DNA from: Armatimonadota bacterium
Lineage (GTDB): Bacteria > Armatimonadota > Chthonomonadetes > Chthonomonadales > Chthonomonadaceae
DNA: 64,000 bases
Assembly (NCBI GenBank): GCA_028871815.1
Contig: JAGWMJ010000003.1
Location: forward strand, 248,001 to 312,000
Reading direction: 5' to 3'
The notes under the pieces are model-generated. The model had not been told where the DNA came from, did no database searches, and worked only from the letters and a program-made list of their open reading frames with translations. Shown here one piece after another: positions 13,542 to 24,318 of this stretch (position 1 is the first letter of the stretch; the number at the start of each line of letters is the position of its first letter). The position numbers were made by a program, and so were the translations under genes.

Positions 13542-13662
13542 ACCGCGCCAGCGTCCCACCGGCGTTAGTCGACAGTCCGTCGAAACGCGTACAATCTTAC
13601 GCGCACGCCTGATCGGTATGCCCGCCGACATCAGCAATTGCGCCACCGCAGCTCGCTGGGGA
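13542..13662 (-). mobile_element. IS3-family fragment, inverted (start of transposase orfB)
   Basis: On the minus strand this reads LLMSAGIPIRRARKIVRVST, a diverged copy of the beginning of the transposase (compare FLMSEGVTARRACKIAGPST in the neighbouring copy). It is head-to-head with the copy at 13663, so the short GCAATT..CTGATGTC segments form an inverted repeat at the junction. It is not functional. Confidence 0.75.
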
Positions 13663-14534
13663 GCGCAATTCCTGATGTCTGAAGGTGTTACGGCCAGGCG
13701 AGCCTGTAAGATCGCGGGCCCCTCTACGGCGGCGCCGTATCGCAAGAGTGCGCCGGACAAGGACAGCGACCTACGCGAAAGGCTGTGCCAGGCCCGGCGG
13801 CCGAGCATGGGCTACCGCATGGTGGACGCGCTTGTTCGGTCGGAGTTTGCGCCGCTGAACATCAGGCGGGTTCACCGGATCTGGAGGGAGGAGAAGCTCG
13901 GGCGGATGAGGCGCTATCGCAAGAAGCGCACTGGCGAGAGCGCTCCAATCAAAGCCGACGCTCCGAATCAAGTCTGGTGCATCGACTTCCTGTTCGATAC
14001 CTGCATGAACGCCACGCGGCTCGAGATTCTGGGGGTCAAGGATGAGTACACGAAGGAATGCCTGGCACTGGAGATCCGCTCCCGGTTTCGGTTAAGGACG
14101 TTAAGCGCGTCGTTGAAAAGCGCTTCGAGGAGTACGGAACGCCACGGTTCCTTCGGTCCGATAACGGCGGCGAGTTTTTGGCCCGCACGCTCGTCGTGTT
14201 CTTGTCGGCTCGCGATACGAAGCCCTATTTCATCAAGCCAGGGTCGCCATGGCAGAACGGCTTTATCGAGAGCTTCAATTCTCGGCTGCGTGCTGAGTGC
14301 CTGGACGTAGAACTGTTTCACAACCTTGCGGACGCCGGGATCAAGCTGGCGGTATATCGCCGGTCGTACAACGAGGAGCGTCCGCATTCTTCGATCGGGT
14401 ATGTGGCCGCGGCCACTTACGGCGCGTGCTGCCGGAATGCCGGTCGGGCTACGCCCTCCCTCCATTCCGGAAGCGAAATGTCTCAACCCACTGCGGATTC
14501 TAGCTAAGGTGTCTTCACCAGTGGGGGCAGACCA
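13663..14534 (+). mobile_element. IS3-family element, 5'-truncated, with broken transposase
   Basis: Contains most of orfB of an IS3-family transposase but not orfA. DDE residues are visible: aspartate in VWCIDFLFD, aspartate in LRSDNGGEF and glutamate in FIESFNSRLRAECLD. The frame is interrupted near 14085-14100, where a single-base shift moves from the 13618-frame to the frame that continues to 14507, so the transposase is inactive. The right terminal repeat ends at 14534 with GGGGGCAGACCA, the complement of TGGTCTGCCCCC at the homologous ends at 21212 and 23878. Confidence 0.8.
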
Positions 14535-14539
14535 CCTCC

Positions 14540-14596
14540 ACCATAGGTGTCGAGAGGATTCTAGTTCACACGTCTTCAAATCCTGGGGGCAGACCA
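14540..14596 (-). mobile_element. IS3-family left-end fragment, inverted
   Basis: Matches the 5' terminal 55-60 bases of the copy at 21212-22439 (complement of TGGTCTGCCC..GGATTTGAAGACG..ACTAGAATCCTCTCGACACC). It lies tail-to-end against the right end of the preceding copy, showing repeated insertion and deletion of the same element. The 216 bases that follow, up to the kwaB stop at 14813, hold no recognisable gene. Confidence 0.75.
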
Positions 14597-14812
14597 CTTC
14601 GGCGCTCTTCAGAGGACTGACCAACGGTTTGCGGGATCACCGAAGGGATTCACAAATTGCCGCACTTGCGCCTGTCGTGGTAACAGGAACTGTCGAGCCC
14701 ACCATTGAGTCACCACCTTGATCTTGAACAAGTCGCAAGGCACGCTAATTGCACTCGCATGTTCGCTCGCCCGAAATCAGAGTAAGCTTAGTCATGTGAG
14801 TGTTCTATTGAG

Positions 14813-15718
14813 CTAAGGGGCGACCTTCTTTCGCGACGCCGCTCTGTATGTATCCGCTTGCTGATCGGCAAGCGGATCAGGATAGAGCCTACGATCGAGG
14901 AGTTCGAGGAACTTTATTTCGTGCTTCGGCCTTGGAGACAGTTTGCCACCGACTTCAATAAGCTCAACCTCAGTCGCCTCACACGCCTTGCGAAACCGAT
15001 CTGCCGAGAGACCGGATATATCGTTTCGCGCTCGGATCGCTGCGAAAAGGCGCCTACCGCGAGCGGACACCTTAACGAACTCGATAGCGAAGTCTAGGCT
15101 CAAAAAAGGGACTGCTGCTGCGACAGCATGCACATGACCGGGCGCTACCTTTATAAGCTCGGCTTCGAGATCCGCGATCCATTCGAACTGCGTGGGCCGA
15201 AGTATTGCCACCGTATCGGGAAAGATAATAAGGTCGAAGTCCGGGTCGAGCTTAAAGACGTTGTCCGTAATGAGATCAAGTTGCCCATTAAGGATATGCA
15301 TCAGCTTCTTTCCGATGGTTCGCTTGAAGTAGCTCGCCCTCCGGACACCGACGCACTCGTTCTTGTGCTTATCACGGAGTTTTGCGAAATAGAAGTCAAG
15401 CTTGGAAGGGTAACTCAAAGCATCAGCGGATACGGGAATATTTTCCGCAGTAATCAAGCTCTTCAGCTTCGCGGCCACTGGGTCATCTACTGAACACTTC
15501 ACGGGTGCGATAGATCCGTATTGTTCAGCACAGTCGAAAGTCTCCCACGTACTTGGTTCGCCAAGCTTGTCCAGGGTGTCCTTGAGCATCTGCGTAAGTT
15601 CGTTGGTCACGGCCGGTGTCACCGGTATGTGATAATGTCGGTCCTCGCCTGTCAACAACGCCACTGCGAACTCAGCATACTCGATTGAAGAGGTGTCTAT
15701 TAGCACAGGTCTACTCAC
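14813..15718 (-). CDS. kwaB: Kiwa anti-phage protein KwaB (DUF4868-like)
   Basis: A 301-residue protein with the layout of KwaB/DUF4868 proteins: an N-terminal alpha/beta part (LDFYFAKLRDKHKNECVGVRR), then an acidic strand-rich part with FKLDPDFDLIIFPDTVAILRPTQFEWI, followed by a helical C-terminus. In known Kiwa systems KwaB pairs with the membrane protein KwaA and acts against phage DNA after KwaA senses infection at the membrane. The gene starts with GTG 15718, overlapping the kwaA stop by 4 bases (GTGA), so the two are translationally coupled. Family assignment is by motif recognition only, and no nuclease motif was identified. The surrounding DNA is AT-richer than the chromosome. Confidence 0.72.
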   Translation of the reverse strand: MSRPVLIDTSSIEYAEFAVALLTGEDRHYHIPVTPAVTNELTQMLKDTLDKLGEPSTWETFDCAEQYGSIAPVKCSVDDPVAAKLKSLITAENIPVSADALSYPSKLDFYFAKLRDKHKNECVGVRRASYFKRTIGKKLMHILNGQLDLITDNVFKLDPDFDLIIFPDTVAILRPTQFEWIADLEAELIKVAPGHVHAVAAAVPFLSLDFAIEFVKVSARGRRLFAAIRARNDISGLSADRFRKACEATEVELIEVGGKLSPRPKHEIKFLELLDRRLYPDPLADQQADTYRAASRKKVAP

Positions 15719-16356
15719 TTTTCGTATTCAATGAAGACGGTGTCGCTTAGCCGTCTAGCGGTTATCCTCTGGCGGGTACGCAAGGAGCGGCGCTTAGTCA
15801 GAAGAACGAGTGTATTTCTACCGCTCGCTGCATTAGAGGTGCCTTCGGTTTCGATCGTATAAACTCTGTAATCCGCTAAGGCGAAGACCAGATTCATGTA
15901 GTGGAGATTCATATGGGTGAATAGGAAAATGACGAATACCAGCGCGGCTAGCTCCGCCATTACATCTCGGACACTCGCGTAATTGTTCTGATAGAGAGGC
16001 ATCACCATTGCGAAGAGGTAGGCTATCAAGTGGTCCCGATGGTCGGTTGCTGTTCCTACGACGAGCTCCTTGAAGTCCTGAGATTTTCCGGCGATATAGA
16101 CCCGAAGTGCTAGAACTCCAGCAGGGAGTACGACAAGGATTAAACACAACGAAACATAGAGGGGATCGGCAATTAGTGGCTTCCCATCTATAGCAGGAAC
16201 GCCTCTGATGGCAAGGAACACGAATAAGGGAGCCATGCTGCCGAGCACCATGAAGAAGCGGACAAACATTAATCCCTCTTTGGGCCGGATGGTTGTAGCA
16301 CCAGGGCTCATAATAGTCTGTCCGTTTCGGGCTATGCTTCGTGTCAAGTTATTCAC
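15715..16356 (-). CDS. kwaA: Kiwa membrane protein KwaA-like
   Basis: Up to 213 residues with four transmembrane segments: FMVLGSMAPLFVFLAI, YVSLCLILVVLPAGVLAL, the helix around LIAYLFAMVMPLY, and ELAALVFVIFLFTHMNL. A cytoplasmic, basic C-terminal tail follows with RRSLRTRQRITARRLSD and VFIEYEK. Size, topology and the coupled KwaB-like gene match the Kiwa pair, in which KwaA is the membrane sensor component. ATG codons at 16356, 16311 and 16269 are possible starts; none has a strong ribosome site. The gene lies 214 bases after the DndE-HerA-like gene, on the same strand, so the two systems may be co-transcribed or simply neighbours. Confidence 0.65.
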   Translation of the reverse strand: MNNLTRSIARNGQTIMSPGATTIRPKEGLMFVRFFMVLGSMAPLFVFLAIRGVPAIDGKPLIADPLYVSLCLILVVLPAGVLALRVYIAGKSQDFKELVVGTATDHRDHLIAYLFAMVMPLYQNNYASVRDVMAELAALVFVIFLFTHMNLHYMNLVFALADYRVYTIETEGTSNAASGRNTLVLLTKRRSLRTRQRITARRLSDTVFIEYEK

Positions 16357-16570: not shown

Positions 16571-18100
16571 TCACGCGAATGCGCTGTAGAACGCCTCGGC
16601 AGTGAACTTAGTGAACTCCTCTGTCTTCTCGGGGCTGCGCGTAATCACTTGCCATGGCTCCAATCGAGCAATCTCCGTCTGGAGGTCCCTCGCCGTTTTG
16701 GGGGTGCAACCGAGAATCTCCTGGACTGACGCGCTCGCTACCCCGTCACATTGAAAAATAAACGTGAATTCCAGGAGCTCCTGAAAGTTGAAGAACTTCT
16801 GCTGATAGTCGTTAGGTGACTGGCTGGCGAAGAAAACGACGACTCCCTTTGAACGCCCTTCTCTTATGATTCGTTGCAGGAATATGTTGTTTTGCGCTAG
16901 GTAGTTGTGCGCTTCATCAATTACCAGGACAGTTCGAATCATGCGTCGGCCGTCCGTGATCGGGCTGTCGGGCAGGGCCGCCATCTCCTTGTAGAGCCGC
17001 TCGATAACCAGGTAGGCGACGAGTTCTTTCAACACTGGCATGGCGTGGACATCGACAAGAAACGAGCGGTTTGACAGCCGATCCATCGGCGGTACATCGC
17101 TGCCGTGGCGCCAGAACAGGTCGAACTCGGAAAGATCGCGTAGCACTTCTATAAGGCTATCGTCTTTCTTTCCTTCTTCATCGTAAGATGCGGCCGCAGC
17201 TTCGAGAATGTCAGGAAAGTCTGGGTACGGGGCCGTTGAGTTTGTGCGCTTGGCGTATCCGGCTCTGATCGCTTCCGTAAGAGCACCTTTTTGGACTACT
17301 CCTAGCTTGCTGTTAATGGACGCGAAACTCTCGGCCTTTTCACGGGCTGACACGCTGATCGATTGTTCGTCATATGCAGGGAGCACGAACGGATTGATTG
17401 GTAGTCCTTGCCCACCCTGCAAGAGGCGAAACGGCTGAACTCGGGCAACCTCTAAGAACCGAGCGTTATCGACAACGTCGCCTTTGTAATCGAAGTAAAT
17501 CAAGTTGGTCTGGTAATTCGACTGAATTCGGATATCTGACAGAATCTTTAACAAGAACTGCGTCTTGCCGACTCCGGGTTTGCCCATAATCGCAAGGTGC
17601 GAATTAGCGTGTTTCGTTGTGTTATTGAGCTCGATTACTAGCTCACCTTGCTGGAGAAGCCGCCGGCCAACGAAGATATCGAGTCCACGGCCAGAGTACT
17701 CGCGGATGCCTGCGAACTCGACTTCGTCTACTAAGCGCCTCAGCAGGGCGTCGCCATTTCCCCCAAGCTCTTGGAACATCTGAGCGAGAATTGCGGCGCC
17801 GCTATCAATGTGGCTCTTGAGAAGCGACCGATTGGAGAAGAACTCCTCTTCGGTTAGGTCTGGCGTCTGATGTGTAAACGAAACCAGCGTGCGCAAGAAG
17901 ACCTCATCTTCCCCGATAAAGGTCGGCCGCTTCATTTCGCCGCCACCAAAGCTCGTACTACGGGAAACTCGAGCGCCATCTTTCAGCAGGGACAGTGCAA
18001 AGGCAATTCGGGCAAGCGTCACCTTCTCCAGCTTTGTTTCGAGTCGCAAAGCACTGAGTACCTCATCGGCGTCGCTCGACGTGTATAGCCGGTCAGCCAT
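16571..18100 (-). CDS. DndE-domain / HerA-type ATPase fusion
   Basis: 509 residues. Residues 1-115 match the DndE domain of DNA phosphorothioation systems (LARIAFALSLL, FIGEDEVFLRTL, then LLKSHIDSGAAIL), where DndE binds nicked DNA. From about 150 to 509 there is a HerA/DUF87-type ATPase with Walker A GKPGVGKT (173-180), Walker B LVIDEAH (392-398) and the RSKGVVVFFASQSPND sensor region. HerA-type ATPases form ring hexamers on DNA. Fusion of the two suggests one protein that recognises DNA state and moves along or unwinds it. It overlaps the upstream dndD gene by 8 bases, so the two are coupled. No dndA, dndB or dndC is present in the window. Confidence 0.75.
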   Translation of the reverse strand: MADRLYTSSDADEVLSALRLETKLEKVTLARIAFALSLLKDGARVSRSTSFGGGEMKRPTFIGEDEVFLRTLVSFTHQTPDLTEEEFFSNRSLLKSHIDSGAAILAQMFQELGGNGDALLRRLVDEVEFAGIREYSGRGLDIFVGRRLLQQGELVIELNNTTKHANSHLAIMGKPGVGKTQFLLKILSDIRIQSNYQTNLIYFDYKGDVVDNARFLEVARVQPFRLLQGGQGLPINPFVLPAYDEQSISVSAREKAESFASINSKLGVVQKGALTEAIRAGYAKRTNSTAPYPDFPDILEAAAASYDEEGKKDDSLIEVLRDLSEFDLFWRHGSDVPPMDRLSNRSFLVDVHAMPVLKELVAYLVIERLYKEMAALPDSPITDGRRMIRTVLVIDEAHNYLAQNNIFLQRIIREGRSKGVVVFFASQSPNDYQQKFFNFQELLEFTFIFQCDGVASASVQEILGCTPKTARDLQTEIARLEPWQVITRSPEKTEEFTKFTAEAFYSAFA

Positions 18101-20093
18101 GATTCTCTTCCCAGAAATACCCTTGCTTGATCGTGGACAATTCTTGGCGTTGATCGAATTCCAACCGTGCCGCGCCGGTCAGTCTCGGCCTTAGCGCCTT
18201 GTAATAGGCTTGGTCTACTTCCGTGTCCGTGGAGAGGATAATCACTTGCTCACCAGCATTGGGAAAGTAGCTATTGACAATATTGTCGCGGTGTGAGCTG
18301 TCCAGGCGCGATAACGGGGTGTCGATGATAATCGGTAGTTTCAGCTCGCTTGTCTGCGCAAGGCCCCATAGCAGCGCGATTGCGAATACTTCCTTTTCGC
18401 CTGCCGACAACGCTGACTTTCGTATCTCGTGCCCATTGCGGTCCGTAATGTGAACCTCATATGTCTCATCATCGATCGTGATGTCCTTTATCAGGCCACT
18501 GCGGCTGGACAGCCTCCGATACATCTCTAAGGTCTTCTCCTGGAGAACATTCACCTTGTTCTTGCGAAGGCGAACCACAAATTGGTTAAGGACGCTAGCA
18601 ATGGCGTCGCACTCGGCTAAGAAGTCTGCTTTCTCCTTTGACACGTTGTGCCTCTCGTACAGCTTGGCGATCTCAACATCGAGCTCGCTAATTCGCTTAT
18701 CGAGCGTAAAGATGTCTTCCTCTTGGAGACGTAGTTGCTCAGTCTTGCGTCCGATTTGCGTCGAGCAGCTTTCCATGGAGGACTGAAGGTCGTCGTACAA
18801 GTTCTCTTCAGTTCGAGACAGGGAGCCGCCTTCGACAACGCCCGCAAGTTGCCGCACCTCGGCTTGGAGACTTGCCACCTCCTCCAGCAGCGGCTTCAGC
18901 AGGAATACGTCGCTGCGTTCTAAAGTATCGATCTTATTAAGAACCCTGGCCGCATCACGCTCCGACAGACCAAGCACTTTCGGTGCGTCCGCCCGAGGGT
19001 CTCCCTCCTGAAGAAGGCACAAGATTCTGCGCTCCAGTTCCGCCATACGTGCTGGGGAAAGCGTTTCCGTATAGATGGGTTCTGGTTCCTCAACAACGCG
19101 AACGATTCTCTTGGCCAGCGAGGCGGCATTCTCTTTGATAGCTTCGCCGCTGGCGGATTCGCGCTCCGCTTCTATTTGCCGACGCAGTCCGTCGAAAGCC
19201 TTGCCGGCGATGCTAAACGGCAGTGCCTTTTCGCATAAGTCGCGAACCTCGGTCTCGACTTGCGCAAGCCGATTAGCGGCGATTGCCCGTCTCTTCTCCT
19301 GTTCACGAATAGTCTCTCGGGATTCCGGCGCGATGTTGAATGTAGCTTCGAACCTCCTCTTGTCCTCTCTGAGTTGGCTCTTGAATGCGTCCAACTCACT
19401 ACGAATATCGTCCACTTCTTGGTGCTTCCGCGCCAACTTGCTCTGCTCTCGTTTGGCTTCCGTCTGCTTGAATTCTAAATCCTCGTCGGAAATCTCGACG
19501 AAGCCCTTCCGTTCTTCCTGCTTTATGTAGCCAATATCGCTTGCCAGACGGTTGATGTACTGAATTCCTAATGCGGCCTCAAGTGACGATTTCAAGCGAA
19601 CTTCAGAGTGATCGTCAGCTGCTATTTCCTGGATCTTCTCGCCGTCGAAGAAGAAGAACTGGGTAATGCCTGGTGGGATTGCGGCGCGGATGAAGTCCTG
19701 CCAAATCTGTTGGTTTTGGCTGGAAACCCGTTTGCCATCGCGTACTACTACTAGGCGCTCCACGAGGTCGCGCGGCTTCGGATCGGTCACCGTACCTGCG
19801 GTCCATGACCGCTTTACAATCAACTCCGAGTGGTCGTCCATCTCCATAGAAAGCTCGAAAGCGATATCGGCATTGCCCTTCGCCTTTTCCCTGCGGTTGA
19901 TGTTCCGGAAGATGTCGTCAACCTTGCCGCCATACAGGCAGTAGCTTACAGCTTCCATGATGGAAGTCTTACCGGCTCCGTTCATGCCACCAATGAGGAA
20001 GATACTATGGCCATCATCACCTGATGGAAATTCTATATCCGTCTGGAGCTGAAACGACTTGTAGTTTTCGATGGTTAGCTTACGGAACTTCAT
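18093..20093 (-). CDS. DndD-like SMC/RecF-type ATPase
   Basis: 666 residues. It starts MKFRKLTIENYKSF and has Walker A GMNGAGKT (36-43), the FFFDGEKIQEIA segment typical of DndD, a central coiled coil of about 350 residues, the ABC signature LSAGEKEVFA (near 560) and Walker B IIIDTPLSRLD (near 590), followed by the LSTDTEV switch. DndD is the ATPase of the DNA sulfur-modification (Dnd) complex and is thought to open or inspect DNA. Here it sits in an operon of coupled genes (overlaps of 4 and 8 bases with its neighbours) with a DndE-HerA fusion. The start of a second, truncated dndD is at 22440-22521. Confidence 0.8.
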   Translation of the reverse strand: MKFRKLTIENYKSFQLQTDIEFPSGDDGHSIFLIGGMNGAGKTSIMEAVSYCLYGGKVDDIFRNINRREKAKGNADIAFELSMEMDDHSELIVKRSWTAGTVTDPKPRDLVERLVVVRDGKRVSSQNQQIWQDFIRAAIPPGITQFFFFDGEKIQEIAADDHSEVRLKSSLEAALGIQYINRLASDIGYIKQEERKGFVEISDEDLEFKQTEAKREQSKLARKHQEVDDIRSELDAFKSQLREDKRRFEATFNIAPESRETIREQEKRRAIAANRLAQVETEVRDLCEKALPFSIAGKAFDGLRRQIEAERESASGEAIKENAASLAKRIVRVVEEPEPIYTETLSPARMAELERRILCLLQEGDPRADAPKVLGLSERDAARVLNKIDTLERSDVFLLKPLLEEVASLQAEVRQLAGVVEGGSLSRTEENLYDDLQSSMESCSTQIGRKTEQLRLQEEDIFTLDKRISELDVEIAKLYERHNVSKEKADFLAECDAIASVLNQFVVRLRKNKVNVLQEKTLEMYRRLSSRSGLIKDITIDDETYEVHITDRNGHEIRKSALSAGEKEVFAIALLWGLAQTSELKLPIIIDTPLSRLDSSHRDNIVNSYFPNAGEQVIILSTDTEVDQAYYKALRPRLTGAARLEFDQRQELSTIKQGYFWEENHG

Positions 20094-20779
20094 GTCTGTT
20101 CGCTAAGCTCCCAGACGCCCTTTGGTGAGCCCTTCTTTAGGATCCCGTCTTGTACCATCCGCCATCTTTCCCAATGGGTATTGTGTCGCCAAACGATGCC
20201 CGCGGTATCTCGTAACTCTAGGTCGCGCGGCAAGAGATGGCCTTCGAGCTGCTTGGCCATTTCGTCGATCACGACTTGGCTGCGCGCACTTCCTCCGTGC
20301 GCACGCAGAGCAATGATAATCTGTTGCCGCAAGATGGCAAAGTCCGTCGTTGGCTCTTTCGATCGATGACGGGTCGGTGTACTTGCGGATTCTGGCTCCC
20401 GGGACCGTGATCGTTTGTCGGGAAGGCCGGATGTTGGGCGGCCAGGCATCGACTCGGTGCCCTCATTCGTTCTATAACGTAAGTCGTTTAGGGTCGCCTG
20501 CAAACCCGTCGCTAGCTCCGCCAACGCTCTAACCCTGTCTTCGTGGAGTTCGATTGAGGCAATTAGCCGAGTCTTTTCTGAGCGTAACGCATCGGGCACC
20601 GATACCTCAGACTTCTGCAACCGCTCGATCGTCTTCGCAATCTCTCTTAACTGCGCTTCTTGTTCCTTAGGAGTTGCCTCGTTGCGACCGATGACGAGTT
20701 GATCAATTACCTGACGGATTAAGTCAATCAAGCGCCCAGGGTCTTGTGCAAAGTCCTTGATAGTTGCGTCTGACGTCAA
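20090..20779 (-). CDS. Coiled-coil protein with C-terminal winged-helix domain
   Basis: 229 residues. The first ~95 residues are helical and charged, with ..QLREIAKTIERLQKSEVSVPDALRSEKTRL.. (predicted coiled coil). A low-complexity Arg/Ser/Pro linker (about 110-140) is followed by a winged-helix domain (about 145-229) resembling the N-terminal domain of Mrr-type restriction proteins (LRAHGGSARSQVVIDEMAKQL .. WRHNTHWERWRMVQDGILKKG .. GVWELSE). It may be a DNA-binding adaptor for the DndD/DndE-HerA complex. The stop overlaps the dndD start by 4 bases and its start overlaps the small upstream gene by 4 bases. A paralogue with the same N-terminus but a different C-terminal domain is at 22570-23382. 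Confidence 0.75.
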   Translation of the reverse strand: MTSDATIKDFAQDPGRLIDLIRQVIDQLVIGRNEATPKEQEAQLREIAKTIERLQKSEVSVPDALRSEKTRLIASIELHEDRVRALAELATGLQATLNDLRYRTNEGTESMPGRPTSGLPDKRSRSREPESASTPTRHRSKEPTTDFAILRQQIIIALRAHGGSARSQVVIDEMAKQLEGHLLPRDLELRDTAGIVWRHNTHWERWRMVQDGILKKGSPKGVWELSEQT

Positions 20780-20970
20780 TGGGATGGCTCTACTTCGCGA
20801 GACGGATCGCTACGAAGAATGTCTCGCAATGCATCGTAGACACCGGTCCGCCGATCTTTGAATTCGTATTCGCGAACGGTGTCGAGCAGCTTCAACACTT
20901 TCTCCTGGCTCACGCCGTGCTGCTCGCAAAGTTCTTTCAAGAGCTGCCTATCATCATAGGAGAGATTCAT
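20776..20970 (-). CDS. Small conserved protein of the Dnd-like operon
   Basis: 64 residues, mostly helical: MNLSYDD, KELCEQHGVSQEKVLKLLDTV, then REYEFKDRRTGVYDALRDIL. It is nearly identical to the protein at 23379-23573. I associate this kind of short protein with DNA-modification (Dnd-type) gene clusters, but no activity is known. It is coupled to the following gene by a 4-base overlap. The ATG start is preceded by a tail of a gene remnant that ends in an ATGA overlap. Confidence 0.7.
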   Translation of the reverse strand: MNLSYDDRQLLKELCEQHGVSQEKVLKLLDTVREYEFKDRRTGVYDALRDILRSDPSREVEPSH

Positions 20971-21211
20971 TCTGCTGTTGGCGCCTCCACGGTGAGTTCC
21001 TCGACGCGAAGTTTGGCTTCCGCTGGGCGTCTCGGGGACTCTTACTGCTTCGTCAGACTTTCCCCGACCAAGGCTCCAATCCCTTCTTGGCTTATGGCCG
21101 GAAGTATTGGAACGACAAACCTATCTATGTCTGTCGCGTAGGTTTCCGCTTGAGCGCGCACACTTGCGTACATCTGTGTTTGGAATTGGCCGATGACGGC
21201 TGGAACACGAG
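20971..21211. repeat. Cassette leader repeat A with 3' end of a lost upstream gene
   Basis: This 241-base block is almost identical to 23574-23815 (a handful of substitutions). On the minus strand it holds an open frame ending in ..VVPILPAISQEGIGALVGESLTKQ and stop, about 75 bases before the small-gene start. A second frame with C-terminus ..EELTVEAPTAE ends in an ATGA overlap with the small gene. It appears to be the 3' end of a gene removed by the IS element at 21212. Which frame is coding could not be decided: substitutions between the copies do not favour one clearly. Confidence 0.55.
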
Positions 21212-21242
21212 TAATCTGTCCCCACTGGTGAAGACACCTTAG

Positions 21243-22090
21243 CTAGAATCCGCAGCGAGTTGAGAGACTTCGCTTCCGAAATGGAGGGACGCTGTAGCCC
21301 GATCGGCGCTTCCAAACCGCGCGGGCCGTAGCAGGAGCTACGTGCCCGATCGAAGAGTGCGGTCGCTCCTCGTTGTACCATCGGCGATATACTGCCAGCT
21401 CGATCTCGGCGTCCTCAAGGTTGTGAAACAGTTCGACGTCCAGGCACTCAGCACGCAGCTGGGAATTGAAGCTCTCGATAAAGCCGTTCTGCCACGGCGA
21501 CCCCGGCTTGATGAAATAGGGCTTAGTATTGCGTTCCGACAGGAACACGGCGCGCGTGCGCGCCAGGAACTCACCGCGGTTATCGGACCGAAGGAACCGG
21601 GGCATTCCGTACTCCTTGAAGCACTTTTCAAGGACGCACTAAACGTCGTTTGACCGAACCTGGGAGCGGATCTCCAGTGCCAGGCAATCCTTCGTGTACT
21701 CATCCTTGACCCCTAGGATCATGAGCTGCGTGCCGTTCATGCAGGTATCGAACAGGAAGTGGATGCACCAGACATGATTGGGAGCTTCGGCTTTGATTGG
21801 AACGCTCTCGCCGGTGTGCTTCTTACGATAGCGCGTCATCCGCCCGAGCTTCTCCTCCTTCCAGATCTGGTGAACCCGCTTGATGTTCAGCGGTGCAAAC
21901 TCCGACCGCACAAGCGCGTGCGCCATGCGGCAGCCTATGTTCGGCCGCTAGGTCTTGCGCAGCCTTTCACGTAGGTCGATGTCCTGGTCCGGAGCACTCT
22001 TGCGATACGGCGCCGCCGTAGAGGCGCCTGCGATCTTACAGGCTCGCCTCGCCGTAACACCTTCAGACATCAGGAATTGCGCGCCCGCAG
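21243..22090 (-). pseudogene. IS3-family transposase OrfB, degenerate
   Basis: The catalytic integrase-like part is split over two frames. The first frame includes KIAG..STAAPYRKSAPD, then a stop, then MAHALVRSEFAPLNIKRVHQIWKEEKLGRM up to ..EIRSQVRSNDV and stop; the second frame continues PRFLRSDNRGEFLA, FIESFNSQLRAECLD and YNEERPHSSIGHV. The aspartate and glutamate of the DDE triad are present, but the first aspartate position reads VWCIHFLFD instead of VWCIDFLFD, a further sign of decay. Confidence 0.8.
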
Positions 22091-22372
22091 CTCGCTGGGG
22101 ATCGTCCACCCGTTTTCTCGAAAGAGCTTCCTTACCGCGGAGATCTCAAACTCAGGCTCGGCAACCAGGAGCCCGAGCGCTTCGTTCTCCCTCTCGAGCT
22201 CCCGCAGCCGCTTCACATCATCGTTCTCCATGCCGGCGTATTTACGCCGCCAGCTGTGGACCGTCGCATCGCTCACGCCGTGCGTTGCAAGGATCGTCTT
22301 CATCGGCGCGCCGGCCTTCAGCTCGCCGAGGACCTTTACAATCCGGTCCTCGGTGAATATCGATTTCTTCAA
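22070..22372 (-). CDS. IS3-family transposase OrfA
   Basis: 100 residues. It has the helix-turn-helix of IS3 OrfA proteins (EDRIVKVLGELKAGAPMKTI, then HGVSDATVHSWRRKYAG) followed by a leucine-zipper region (LRELERENEALGLLVAEPEF), which mediates oligomerisation. The start is TTG 22372, preceded by GGGAGG. In intact elements a programmed frameshift joins OrfA to OrfB. Its partner orfB is broken here. Confidence 0.85.
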   Translation of the reverse strand: MKKSIFTEDRIVKVLGELKAGAPMKTILATHGVSDATVHSWRRKYAGMENDDVKRLRELERENEALGLLVAEPEFEISAVRKLFRENGWTIPSELRARNS

Positions 22373-22439
22373 AATGATCCTCCCTCATAGGTGTCGAGAG
22401 GATTCTAGTTTGCGCGTCTTCAAATCCTTGGGCAGACCA

Positions 22440-22521
22440 CATCTTCCCCTATTGGAAAGGCGATCTCAGTTGGAAACTGGAAGGATTTGTAGTTTTCAAT
22501 TGTCAGCTTTCGCAGTTTCAT
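22440..22521 (-). pseudogene. Truncated second dndD (5' end only)
   Basis: From ATG 22521 the minus strand reads MKLRKLTIENYKSFQFPTEI and is cut off at 22440 by the IS end. It matches the start of the intact dndD at 20093 (MKFRKLTIENYKSFQLQTDI). It shows that a complete second Dnd-like operon once existed here. It lies 48 bases after the upstream gene, whereas in the intact operon the genes overlap by 4 bases. Confidence 0.85.
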
Positions 22522-22569
22522 TCAAAGCCCTCGCCAACCGTCGTTAGACAGACTGCGAAATAGTTTGCG

Positions 22570-23382
22570 TTACGACAGGAGATATTGGGAAACGTCGACT
22601 GCGTTACCTCTTCCCGGCTGCCCCAATAAGAGCCGTGGATTGTCCTCGTAAATGCGGACGTGCCAATAGTCTTTCTTACCGCCGACCGTCTTATCCATGG
22701 ATTGGACCAGGGTCCTTAGAACGGCAAGCGGAATAACTACAATCCTGTTCGCGGAGCCACAACCAAATGCTGCATATCCTGCTGCAGCCTTCTGAAGAAA
22801 GTCGAAGTGTTTTTTCTGAAATCCATACCAGTACTGCAGGTTTGGATAGGTTTTGGAAACACCGCATGTAAAGCGCTTTTCATCGCCGGCGCTTCGGTAT
22901 TGAGCTAAGGTAATCTTGGTAAGCGATACGTCGAAGTGTTCCGCAACTGCCTCCATGACCTGGGGATGAAAATTGGCCACATCCGTAGTTTTGGAAACAA
23001 TGGGCCAACCACTCTGCGTCTCCCCGGTGGCACCGGACGTCCTCTTAGGAGTCTAAATCGTTGGACCGATGCGCCGACCGCCGATGTCTTCAAGTATGCT
23101 CTTTAGGCCACCCGACAAAGACGCCAAGGACTTACTTGCTTCTTCATTGACTGCAAGAGCCGCAGCCAAGCGAGTCTTTTCCGCTCTCAACGCCTCAGGC
23201 ACCGTCACGCCTGCCTTCTCCAGTCGCTCAACAGCCTTTGCGATTTCCCGGAGCTGTGCTTGGCACTGTACCACTTCGCCGGTTGGTGAATTGGTACGTA
23301 ACTCATCGCACACTTGGCGGCAAAGCTCGACGAGGAGATCTGGGTCTTTGACGTACTGTTCGATGTCGATTGCATCGGTCAT
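22570..23382 (-). pseudogene. Coiled-coil protein with a different C-terminal domain, split by an in-frame TAG
   Basis: The frame from 23382 encodes 109 residues (N-terminus like that of the 20090-20779 protein: ..QLREIAKAVERLEKAGVTVPEALRAEKTRL..) up to TAG 23053-23055, then continues in the same frame to 22570. The second part contains KTYPNLQYWYGFQKKHFDFL, GYAAFGCGSANRIVVIPL and DYWHVRIYEDNPRLLLGQ, a compact domain I recall from restriction-related proteins but cannot name. The shared N-terminus with the paralogue and a different C-terminal domain suggest interchangeable specificity modules. The second part could restart at GTG 22980. Confidence 0.65.
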
Positions 23383-23573
23383 ACCGGCTGCTCCGCTTGT
23401 TCGGTCGGCTTACTCCTCAAGATTTCCCGTAACTCATCATATACACCGGTCCGCCGATCTTTGAATTCGTATTCCCGAACGGTGTCGAGCAGCTTCAACA
23501 CTTTCTCCTGGCTCACGCTGTGTTGCTCGCAAAGTTCTTTGAAGAGCTGGCTATCATCATAGGAGAGATTCAA
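23379..23573 (-). CDS. Small conserved protein of the second Dnd-like cassette
   Basis: 64 residues, nearly identical to the 20776-20970 protein (MNLSYDDSQLFKELCEQHSVSQEKVLKLLDTV, then the EYEFKDRRTG block), with a TTG start at 23573 (ATG in the other copy). It overlaps the following gene by 4 bases. Conservation between the copies is highest here and in the N-terminus of the next protein. Confidence 0.65.
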   Translation of the reverse strand: MNLSYDDSQLFKELCEQHSVSQEKVLKLLDTVREYEFKDRRTGVYDELREILRSKPTEQAEQPV

Positions 23574-23877
23574 TCTGCTGTTGCCGCCTCCACGATGAGT
23601 TCCTCGACGCGACGTTTGGCTTCCGCTGGGCGTCTCGGGGACTCTTACTGCTTCGTCAGACTTTCCCCGACCAAGGCTCCAATCCCTTCTTGGCTTATGG
23701 CCGGAAGTATTGGAACGACAAACCTATCTATGTCTGTCGGGTAGGTTTCCGCTTGAGCGCGCACACTTGCGTACATCTGTGTTTGGAATTGGCCGATGAC
23801 GGCTGGAATACGAGTGCCTTGCACGCAGCGTCACTTCCAGGTCGCATTCTGAGAATGTTGACTCGGTTGCTAGGGAT
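23574..23877. repeat. Cassette leader repeat B with remnant of a lost upstream gene
   Basis: Positions 23574-23815 repeat 20971-21211 nearly base for base; the next 62 bases, up to the IS end at 23878, are unique. On the minus strand a short open frame of about 59 codons ends ..ISQEGIGALVGESLTKQ. This copy shows that the homologous upstream gene was also truncated, here by another IS3 remnant. Confidence 0.55.
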
Positions 23878-24062
23878 GGTCTGCCCCCAACGCTAATGGC
23901 CTTCTAGCTACAATCCGCGGTTGGTTGGGCCATGCCGATTTGGAAGCTGAGGGGCGCCGTAGCCCGACCGGCTCCCCAAACCGCGCACGGGCGGCAGCAG
24001 GAGCTACGTGCCCGGTCGAAGAGTGCGGACCCAGCTCGTTATACCAGCGCCGAAACGGTTCG
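23878..24062 (-). mobile_element. IS3-family remnant (orfB 3' end)
   Basis: Starts with TGGTCTGCCCCC on the plus strand, the same end sequence as the other copies. On the minus strand it contains the C-terminus of an IS3 orfB (YNELGPHSS..GHVAPAAARA, GLRRPSASK). It is related to, but not a direct copy of, the element at 21212. Homology fades near 24062, marking the approximate right edge of the island. Confidence 0.75.
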
Positions 24063-24318
24063 TTACTAGAGGACCCTACTTTACGCGCCTCCAGGTCCTG
24101 CGGGCAAACCAGCCGCGCGCGTGCTTCCAGCCGCCGCCGGTATAATCTGCCAAGCGGCGCTCACCGTGGCCGGCTCGTAACGCCATGGTTTGCGATCCGG
24201 CATTAGTCGGGCATTCACAGGCTCCGCGACCGGCACTTCTCGCGGGTCACGTTCCAACCGACGAGGCGTCACAGTAGTCCGCCCGCCCCACCCGACCGGC
24301 GAGTTGCGAGGAGGCAGA

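Follow-up and report, generated by a model that had tools for sequence, protein, structure and literature searches.

The 64,000-nucleotide window analysed here (Armatimonadota bacterium, GenBank assembly GCA_028871815.1, contig JAGWMJ010000003.1, positions 248,001 to 312,000 of the forward strand) contains two tandem cassettes of Dnd-type genes, which we regard as probably being the remnants of a hybrid defence system that joined DNA methylation to a Dnd-type machinery. The whole gene set lies on the minus strand, hence, read in the 5′ to 3′ direction of the genes, the "second" cassette is located upstream of the first. Cassette 1 encodes the small adaptor protein Sp1 of the Sp-DndD family (20776–20970, 64 aa; PF20306, 50.5 bits against a cut-off of 27.2), a protein of 229 aa that we call a reader for its proposed role (20090–20779; a helical N-terminal domain, termed dock, and an Mrr_N-like winged helix according to profiles and an AlphaFold model), an intact DndD ATPase (18093–20093; TIGR03185, 378 bits against a cut-off of 245.85) and an intact DndE::HerA fusion (16571–18100). 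In the latter, a DndE domain (residues 4–109; PF08870, 40.4 bits against 25) precedes a HerA/DptH-like ATPase (residues 138–505; PADLOC DndH, E 5e-35), with the DndE domain scoring 39.7 bits and thus under the TIGR03184 equivalog cut-off of 71.85. All four genes are full length and open, and the Walker and ABC-signature motifs are found in their translations.

The methylation part is represented in the window by two broken tails of HsdS, and HsdM is not present in it. A search of the source genome recovered no close HsdM, and a genome-wide search for Sp-DndD found two copies, both of them in the window. The upstream HsdS remnant (23600–23824) is a C-terminal piece with an in-frame TAA that was recognised by tblastn to residues 383–456 of the HsdS of a relative (L023, E 2.7e-6) and by an S-profile match, and the downstream remnant (20971–21206) is 98% identical to it and carries the same TAA.

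The complete operon is visible in relatives. Three aligned DndE::HerA fusions, used as the query of a scan, gave 80 loci, of which 55 are near relatives (L016–L070), most of them 60–81% identical. The full core of Sp, DndD and DndE::HerA is found in 43 of these 55 loci, which span eleven named phyla, and 28 of the 43 core-bearing loci possess both HsdM and HsdS. Isolates that carry the operon in full include Methylotuvimicrobium buryatense 5G (L033) and Paracoccus sulfuroxidans (L036). The intact order is HsdM with a nuclease domain, HsdS, optionally a RhuM or macro-domain gene, Sp, zero to three readers, DndD, DndE::HerA and optionally a reader with a helix-turn-helix (HTH) head. In HsdM, a nuclease-type HSDR_N domain precedes an N6-adenine-type methyltransferase domain, and the motifs of both (DPxCGSxGF/NPPF and, for HSDR_N, AD...E.K...Q) are kept in 22 long sequences. 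DndC was detected in none of the 55 near relatives and not in the window, while most of the distant DndE::HerA loci have DndC, in the majority of cases a short form accompanied by a free-standing Sp gene. In a mirror-tree comparison the distances of HsdS correlate poorly with those of the other operon parts (r 0.05–0.33); HsdS therefore diverges independently, which fits a freely changing specificity subunit. The gene frequently located between HsdS and Sp encodes a DarG-like macro-domain protein in some relatives (L025:4964–6031, L026:5126–6163, L029:3693–4760) and RhuM in others; these genes possibly reflect a link to ADP-ribosylation or a toxin-antitoxin add-on. A short system consisting of Sp, DndD and DndE::HerA only, with neither a methylase nor DndC nearby, is present in the same phylum (L013:7673–11443).

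The small protein suggests how such a combination could be held together. The Sp family profile aligns to residues 436–484 of E. coli DndC. Residues 433–482 of DndC are reported to form one of its two DndD-binding surfaces, from AlphaFold3 models and pull-downs of point mutants, and free DndE binds to coiled coil 2 of DndD (PMC12193691). On the basis of the profile alignment, Sp is shown to be homologous to the C-terminal DndC segment at the published DndC–DndD interface, and it looks like an adaptor that couples different modification enzymes to DndD. Since Sp is fused to DndC in canonical Dnd loci, stands separately beside a short DndC in the distant loci, and occurs without DndC but with HsdM and HsdS in the near relatives, the simplest reading would be that the docking tail was retained while another modification enzyme took over, this takeover itself being what we infer from this distribution.

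When compared to known systems, the operon shares with Dnd phosphorothioation (DndABCDE) a DndD above the TIGR03185 cut-off, a DndE domain and, with Sp, the DndD-binding tail of DndC. It differs in lacking the catalytic part of DndC, in the fusion of DndE to HerA and in the methyltransferase genes that its relatives carry instead. DndE::HerA fusions of clade-3 HerA next to a DndD-related ATPase have been placed in a subset of phosphorothioate modification systems (Rakesh, Aravind and Krishnan 2024, PMC10853773); the same study suggests that other modifications may be used where DndC is lacking, and leaves open which one. The loci described here match that arrangement of DndE fused to a HerA/FtsK ATPase adjoining a DndD-related ATPase, but the near relatives additionally possess HsdM, HsdS and the reader family and have no DndC. 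HsdM, HsdS and HerA also resemble MAD2, MAD5 and mad8 of the MADS system, yet the HsdM and HsdS of one relative (L020) reach only 271.8 versus 720 bits and 160.3 versus 400 bits for the NCBIfam MAD2 and MAD5 models, and DndD, Sp and readers are present here. With type I restriction-modification the relatives have HsdM and an independently diverging HsdS in common, whereas the position in which one would expect HsdR is taken by a DndD/DndE::HerA motor and the nuclease domain of HsdM; in the relatives no gene of HsdR size was found from HsdM to the operon end, a search by gene size in which no HsdR profile was run. The CxC ATPase system PbeABCD is close in score, the ATPase of the window obtaining 451 bits for DndD and 421 for PbeC (PADLOC). 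A description of the HsdM–HsdS branch or of the reader family was not found in the literature searched; the HsdM–HsdS operon may have been mentioned earlier in 2020 work on ABC ATPases.

The original prediction, made from the sequence of the window, described the two cassettes as having nearly identical small proteins followed by proteins with related coiled-coil N-termini and different C-terminal domains. Sp2 (23379–23573, 64 aa; PF20306, 41.9 bits against a cut-off of 27.2) is identical to Sp1 at 50 of 64 residues (78%), and near-identity is limited to the upstream stretch and the 5′ part of sp: at the DNA level the two cassettes agree at 98% of positions in the HsdS tail and at 95% in the initial 120 bases of sp, but at 68–72% in the 3′ part of sp, in the dock and in dndD. 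This fall places a recombination junction within sp. Since both HsdS tails carry one and the same stop codon, the near-identical stretch arose by duplication or conversion at a time when HsdS was already broken. The relatedness of the N-termini held up, as the first 105 aa of the two reader genes are 42% identical and the N-terminus of cassette 2 matches the class of cassette 1 with an hhalign probability of 99.9%. So did the difference between the C-terminal domains, given that the Mrr_N-like winged helix and the domain of cassette 2, hereafter X, show no profile similarity (hhalign 0.8%).

Other parts of that description had to be revised. The second protein of cassette 2 is not a single open reading frame (ORF), because a TAG at 23053–23055 ends the dock (23053–23382), and X (22570–22980), identified by its open frame and by matches elsewhere, follows in the same frame. 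Nor does cassette 2 end with this protein: it continues into the start of dndD (22521–22440; MKLRKLTIENYKSFQFPTEIAFPIGED; 72% DNA identity to the start of the intact dndD), which is recognisable for about 27 codons before the remainder is lost to an IS3-type element. With dock and X separated by the TAG and dndD cut by the element, cassette 2 is dead. Cassette 1, which lacks HsdM and most of HsdS, may be decaying, may work without a methylase of its own or may rely on other proteins; with the modification and nuclease genes missing, the function of its remaining core is uncertain. A Lamprocystis genome likewise contains an additional copy of this operon that has decayed (L149:1–5262), hence operon decay is not peculiar to the window.

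The profile grown from both N-termini of the window retrieved a reader set of 43 proteins, including the two of the window. Among the 42 C-terminally intact readers, 25 (cassette 1 included) carry an Mrr_N-like winged helix, nine an HTH domain and eight a RAMA domain; the 43rd is the dock of cassette 2 with X, a head known on a dock only from the window. The dock is common to all classes, with hhalign probabilities of 96–99.9% between classes and of at most 0.2% in shuffled-column controls, while the heads are unrelated between classes (at most 1.7%). One N-terminus is thus combined with at least three, and probably four, unrelated C-termini, and the possibility that homologues always bear the same C-terminal domain is thereby discarded. 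RAMA (PF18755) was matched in all seven class members scanned (best E 1.7e-17; L025, 43.5 bits against a cut-off of 35.2) and Mrr_N in 16 of 23 (best E 1e-8; L057, 35.6 bits). The winged helix of cassette 1 is modelled by AlphaFold with a predicted local distance difference test score above 90, and its fold is supported by a VIA-align Z score of 9.3 (71 residues, root-mean-square deviation 2.3). In the AlphaFold models of two classes the dock is a helical hairpin rather than the long coiled coil that had been proposed. The model of the HTH class, whose genes come after DndE::HerA, gave only helical hairpins and no informative match with Foldseek and VIA.

In the 40 operon-bearing genomes almost all reader matches are located at operon loci. 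Genes that resemble readers, with dock and winged helix, were observed in two genomes of the same phylum (L147:9442–10206, L148:90–1472). When the reader protein and X were each searched alone in genome contigs, plasmids, phages and viral contigs, no relative was found. Apparently long readers in L021 and L027, suspected to be Sp–dock fusions, turned out to result from upstream start codons in an open frame.

The original prediction interpreted the two cassettes as module exchange, in which a conserved dock receives variable sensor domains. A single dock with unrelated heads agrees with this idea, and so do, as regards sensing, two C-terminal classes that belong to families regarded as readers of modified DNA. 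As a frequent process, exchange is not borne out: on the dock tree the classes form nearly separate, mostly old lineages, and the class changes are at the minimum of three for four classes, from which we conclude that heads were exchanged rarely. Only X is nested in another class. The dock of cassette 2 branches within the winged-helix class, and a placement outside of it is rejected by the approximately unbiased test (p=0.010). If X and the dock were one gene, X would have replaced a winged helix in a real exchange, a case that involves one broken gene. Alternatively, X and the dock never formed one gene: the reader would have lost its winged helix, the 3′ end of another gene would have landed alongside, and the difference between the cassettes would reflect decay. 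This would account for the TAG between the two ORFs in a cassette that is otherwise dead, and for the finding that none of 291 genomes of the phylum and none of the 40 operon genomes contains an intact dock–X fusion. We nonetheless consider it unlikely, because dock and X share one frame without a further stop over the 24 intervening codons (chance estimated by us at ~0.1), X occupies the place of the winged helix of relatives with the dock on one side and dndD on the other, and no N-terminal restriction endonuclease (REase) or HEPN part accompanies X in cassette 2. Such parts are its partners elsewhere in the phylum, where X is the C-terminal domain behind a putative PD-(D/E)XK-type part, assigned by eye from the sequence in the absence of a Pfam match, or behind a Swt1-type HEPN domain (Pfam). 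Six loci encode X proteins with REase-like or Swt1-HEPN N-termini (L098–L103). X itself has no Pfam family and no match among PDB sequences. This undescribed C-terminal domain may serve type IV-like enzymes in reading modified DNA; its REase-like and HEPN contexts would fit a sensor head but are not proof of one.

Returning to the hybrid system, we propose that Sp would clip onto the DndD head and couple the scanning motor of DndD and DndE to HsdM–HsdS instead of a sulfur-transfer enzyme. The DndE part of the fusion would sit on the coiled coil of DndD, HerA would pump DNA, and the HSDR_N domain of HsdM would cut DNA that lacks self methylation. Readers would dock by their helical N-terminus on Sp and/or DndD, and their exchangeable head, be it winged helix, RAMA, HTH or X, would report the modification state or the sequence of the scanned DNA. 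Winged-helix domains sense N6-methyladenine (6mA) in several enzymes, and RAMA has been proposed, and disputed, as a 6mA reader (PMC11037411). The type IV enzymes with winged-helix or RAMA domains (DpnI, Mrr and fusions; PMC11037411) employ the same kinds of heads, which in the present operon are borne by the docking domain of a separate small protein and not by a nuclease.

Several observations weigh against this proposal. Mrr_N reaches 21.7 bits on the window protein compared to a PF14338 cut-off of 29.5 (Pfam E 2e-4 for this protein alone), and no dnd gene was found adjoining the reader-like gene of L147. Readers are absent from 16 of the 43 core loci and are hence dispensable. The distances of DndD correlate with those of the reader N-terminus (r=0.86) without a clear excess over the head (0.83), and such mirror-tree correlations mostly reflect that the genes are inherited together as an operon and are no demonstration of contact. 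Docking of the readers on DndD or Sp is what we infer, and the role of the operon in defence is predicted from its genes alone. The readers might instead be structural subunits of the DndD ATPase that read no DNA, like kleisin or the MukE-type winged-helix partners of SMC proteins, given that DndD is an SMC/Rad50-like ATPase and that a Foldseek search with the winged-helix reader ranked MukE first, although the match is weak (E 0.03). This appears improbable to us, as the heads are mutually unrelated and include RAMA, which is not an ATPase partner, and the loci without any reader speak against a structural subunit as well. It is likewise improbable, in our estimation, that the readers are regulators of the operon, acting as DNA-binding repressors outside of the defence complex: while their HTH and winged-helix folds, their small size and their varying position in the operon would suit repressors, RAMA heads would not, as many as three readers occur in one operon (L029, L057), and the common N-terminal domain is almost restricted to this operon.

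Directly downstream of DndE::HerA lies a pair of Kiwa-like genes, KwaA-like (15715–16356; PADLOC E 7e-62, NCBIfam 55.6 bits and thus under the cut-off of 100) and KwaB-like (14813–15718; PADLOC E 2e-57, Pfam 23.0 bits and thus under the cut-off of 26.3). Since the loci of the relatives yielded no Kiwa homologue, the pair (14813–16356) is an apparent defence-island neighbour. The IS3-type element that interrupts the dndD of cassette 2 (21208–22439) is degenerate and was recognised by its ORFs and by repeats shared with another copy near 14.0–14.6 kb; in total, three copies or remnants (13600–14620, 21208–22439 and 23868–24103) flank the defence genes. They probably caused the loss of HsdM, of most of HsdS and of most of the second dndD.

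Taken further, the data suggest to us, tentatively and at somewhat less than even confidence, a plug-in architecture: Sp, freed from DndC, would be a universal adaptor that allows different DNA modifications, whether phosphorothioate or type I-like adenine methylation, to drive the DndD–DndE(HerA) motor, and docking-domain proteins of a separate family would supply interchangeable heads for modified DNA, among them X, which has not previously been described as a DNA reader. The genes of one branch, which spans eleven named phyla, offer an answer that can be tested to the question left by PMC10853773, namely adenine-type methylation by HsdM–HsdS, and Sp would supply a physical reason for the swap of the modification enzyme. 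One dock with several heads may furthermore constitute a natural set that is useful for finding readers of modified DNA, including X and RAMA, the preference of the latter being under dispute (PMC11037411).

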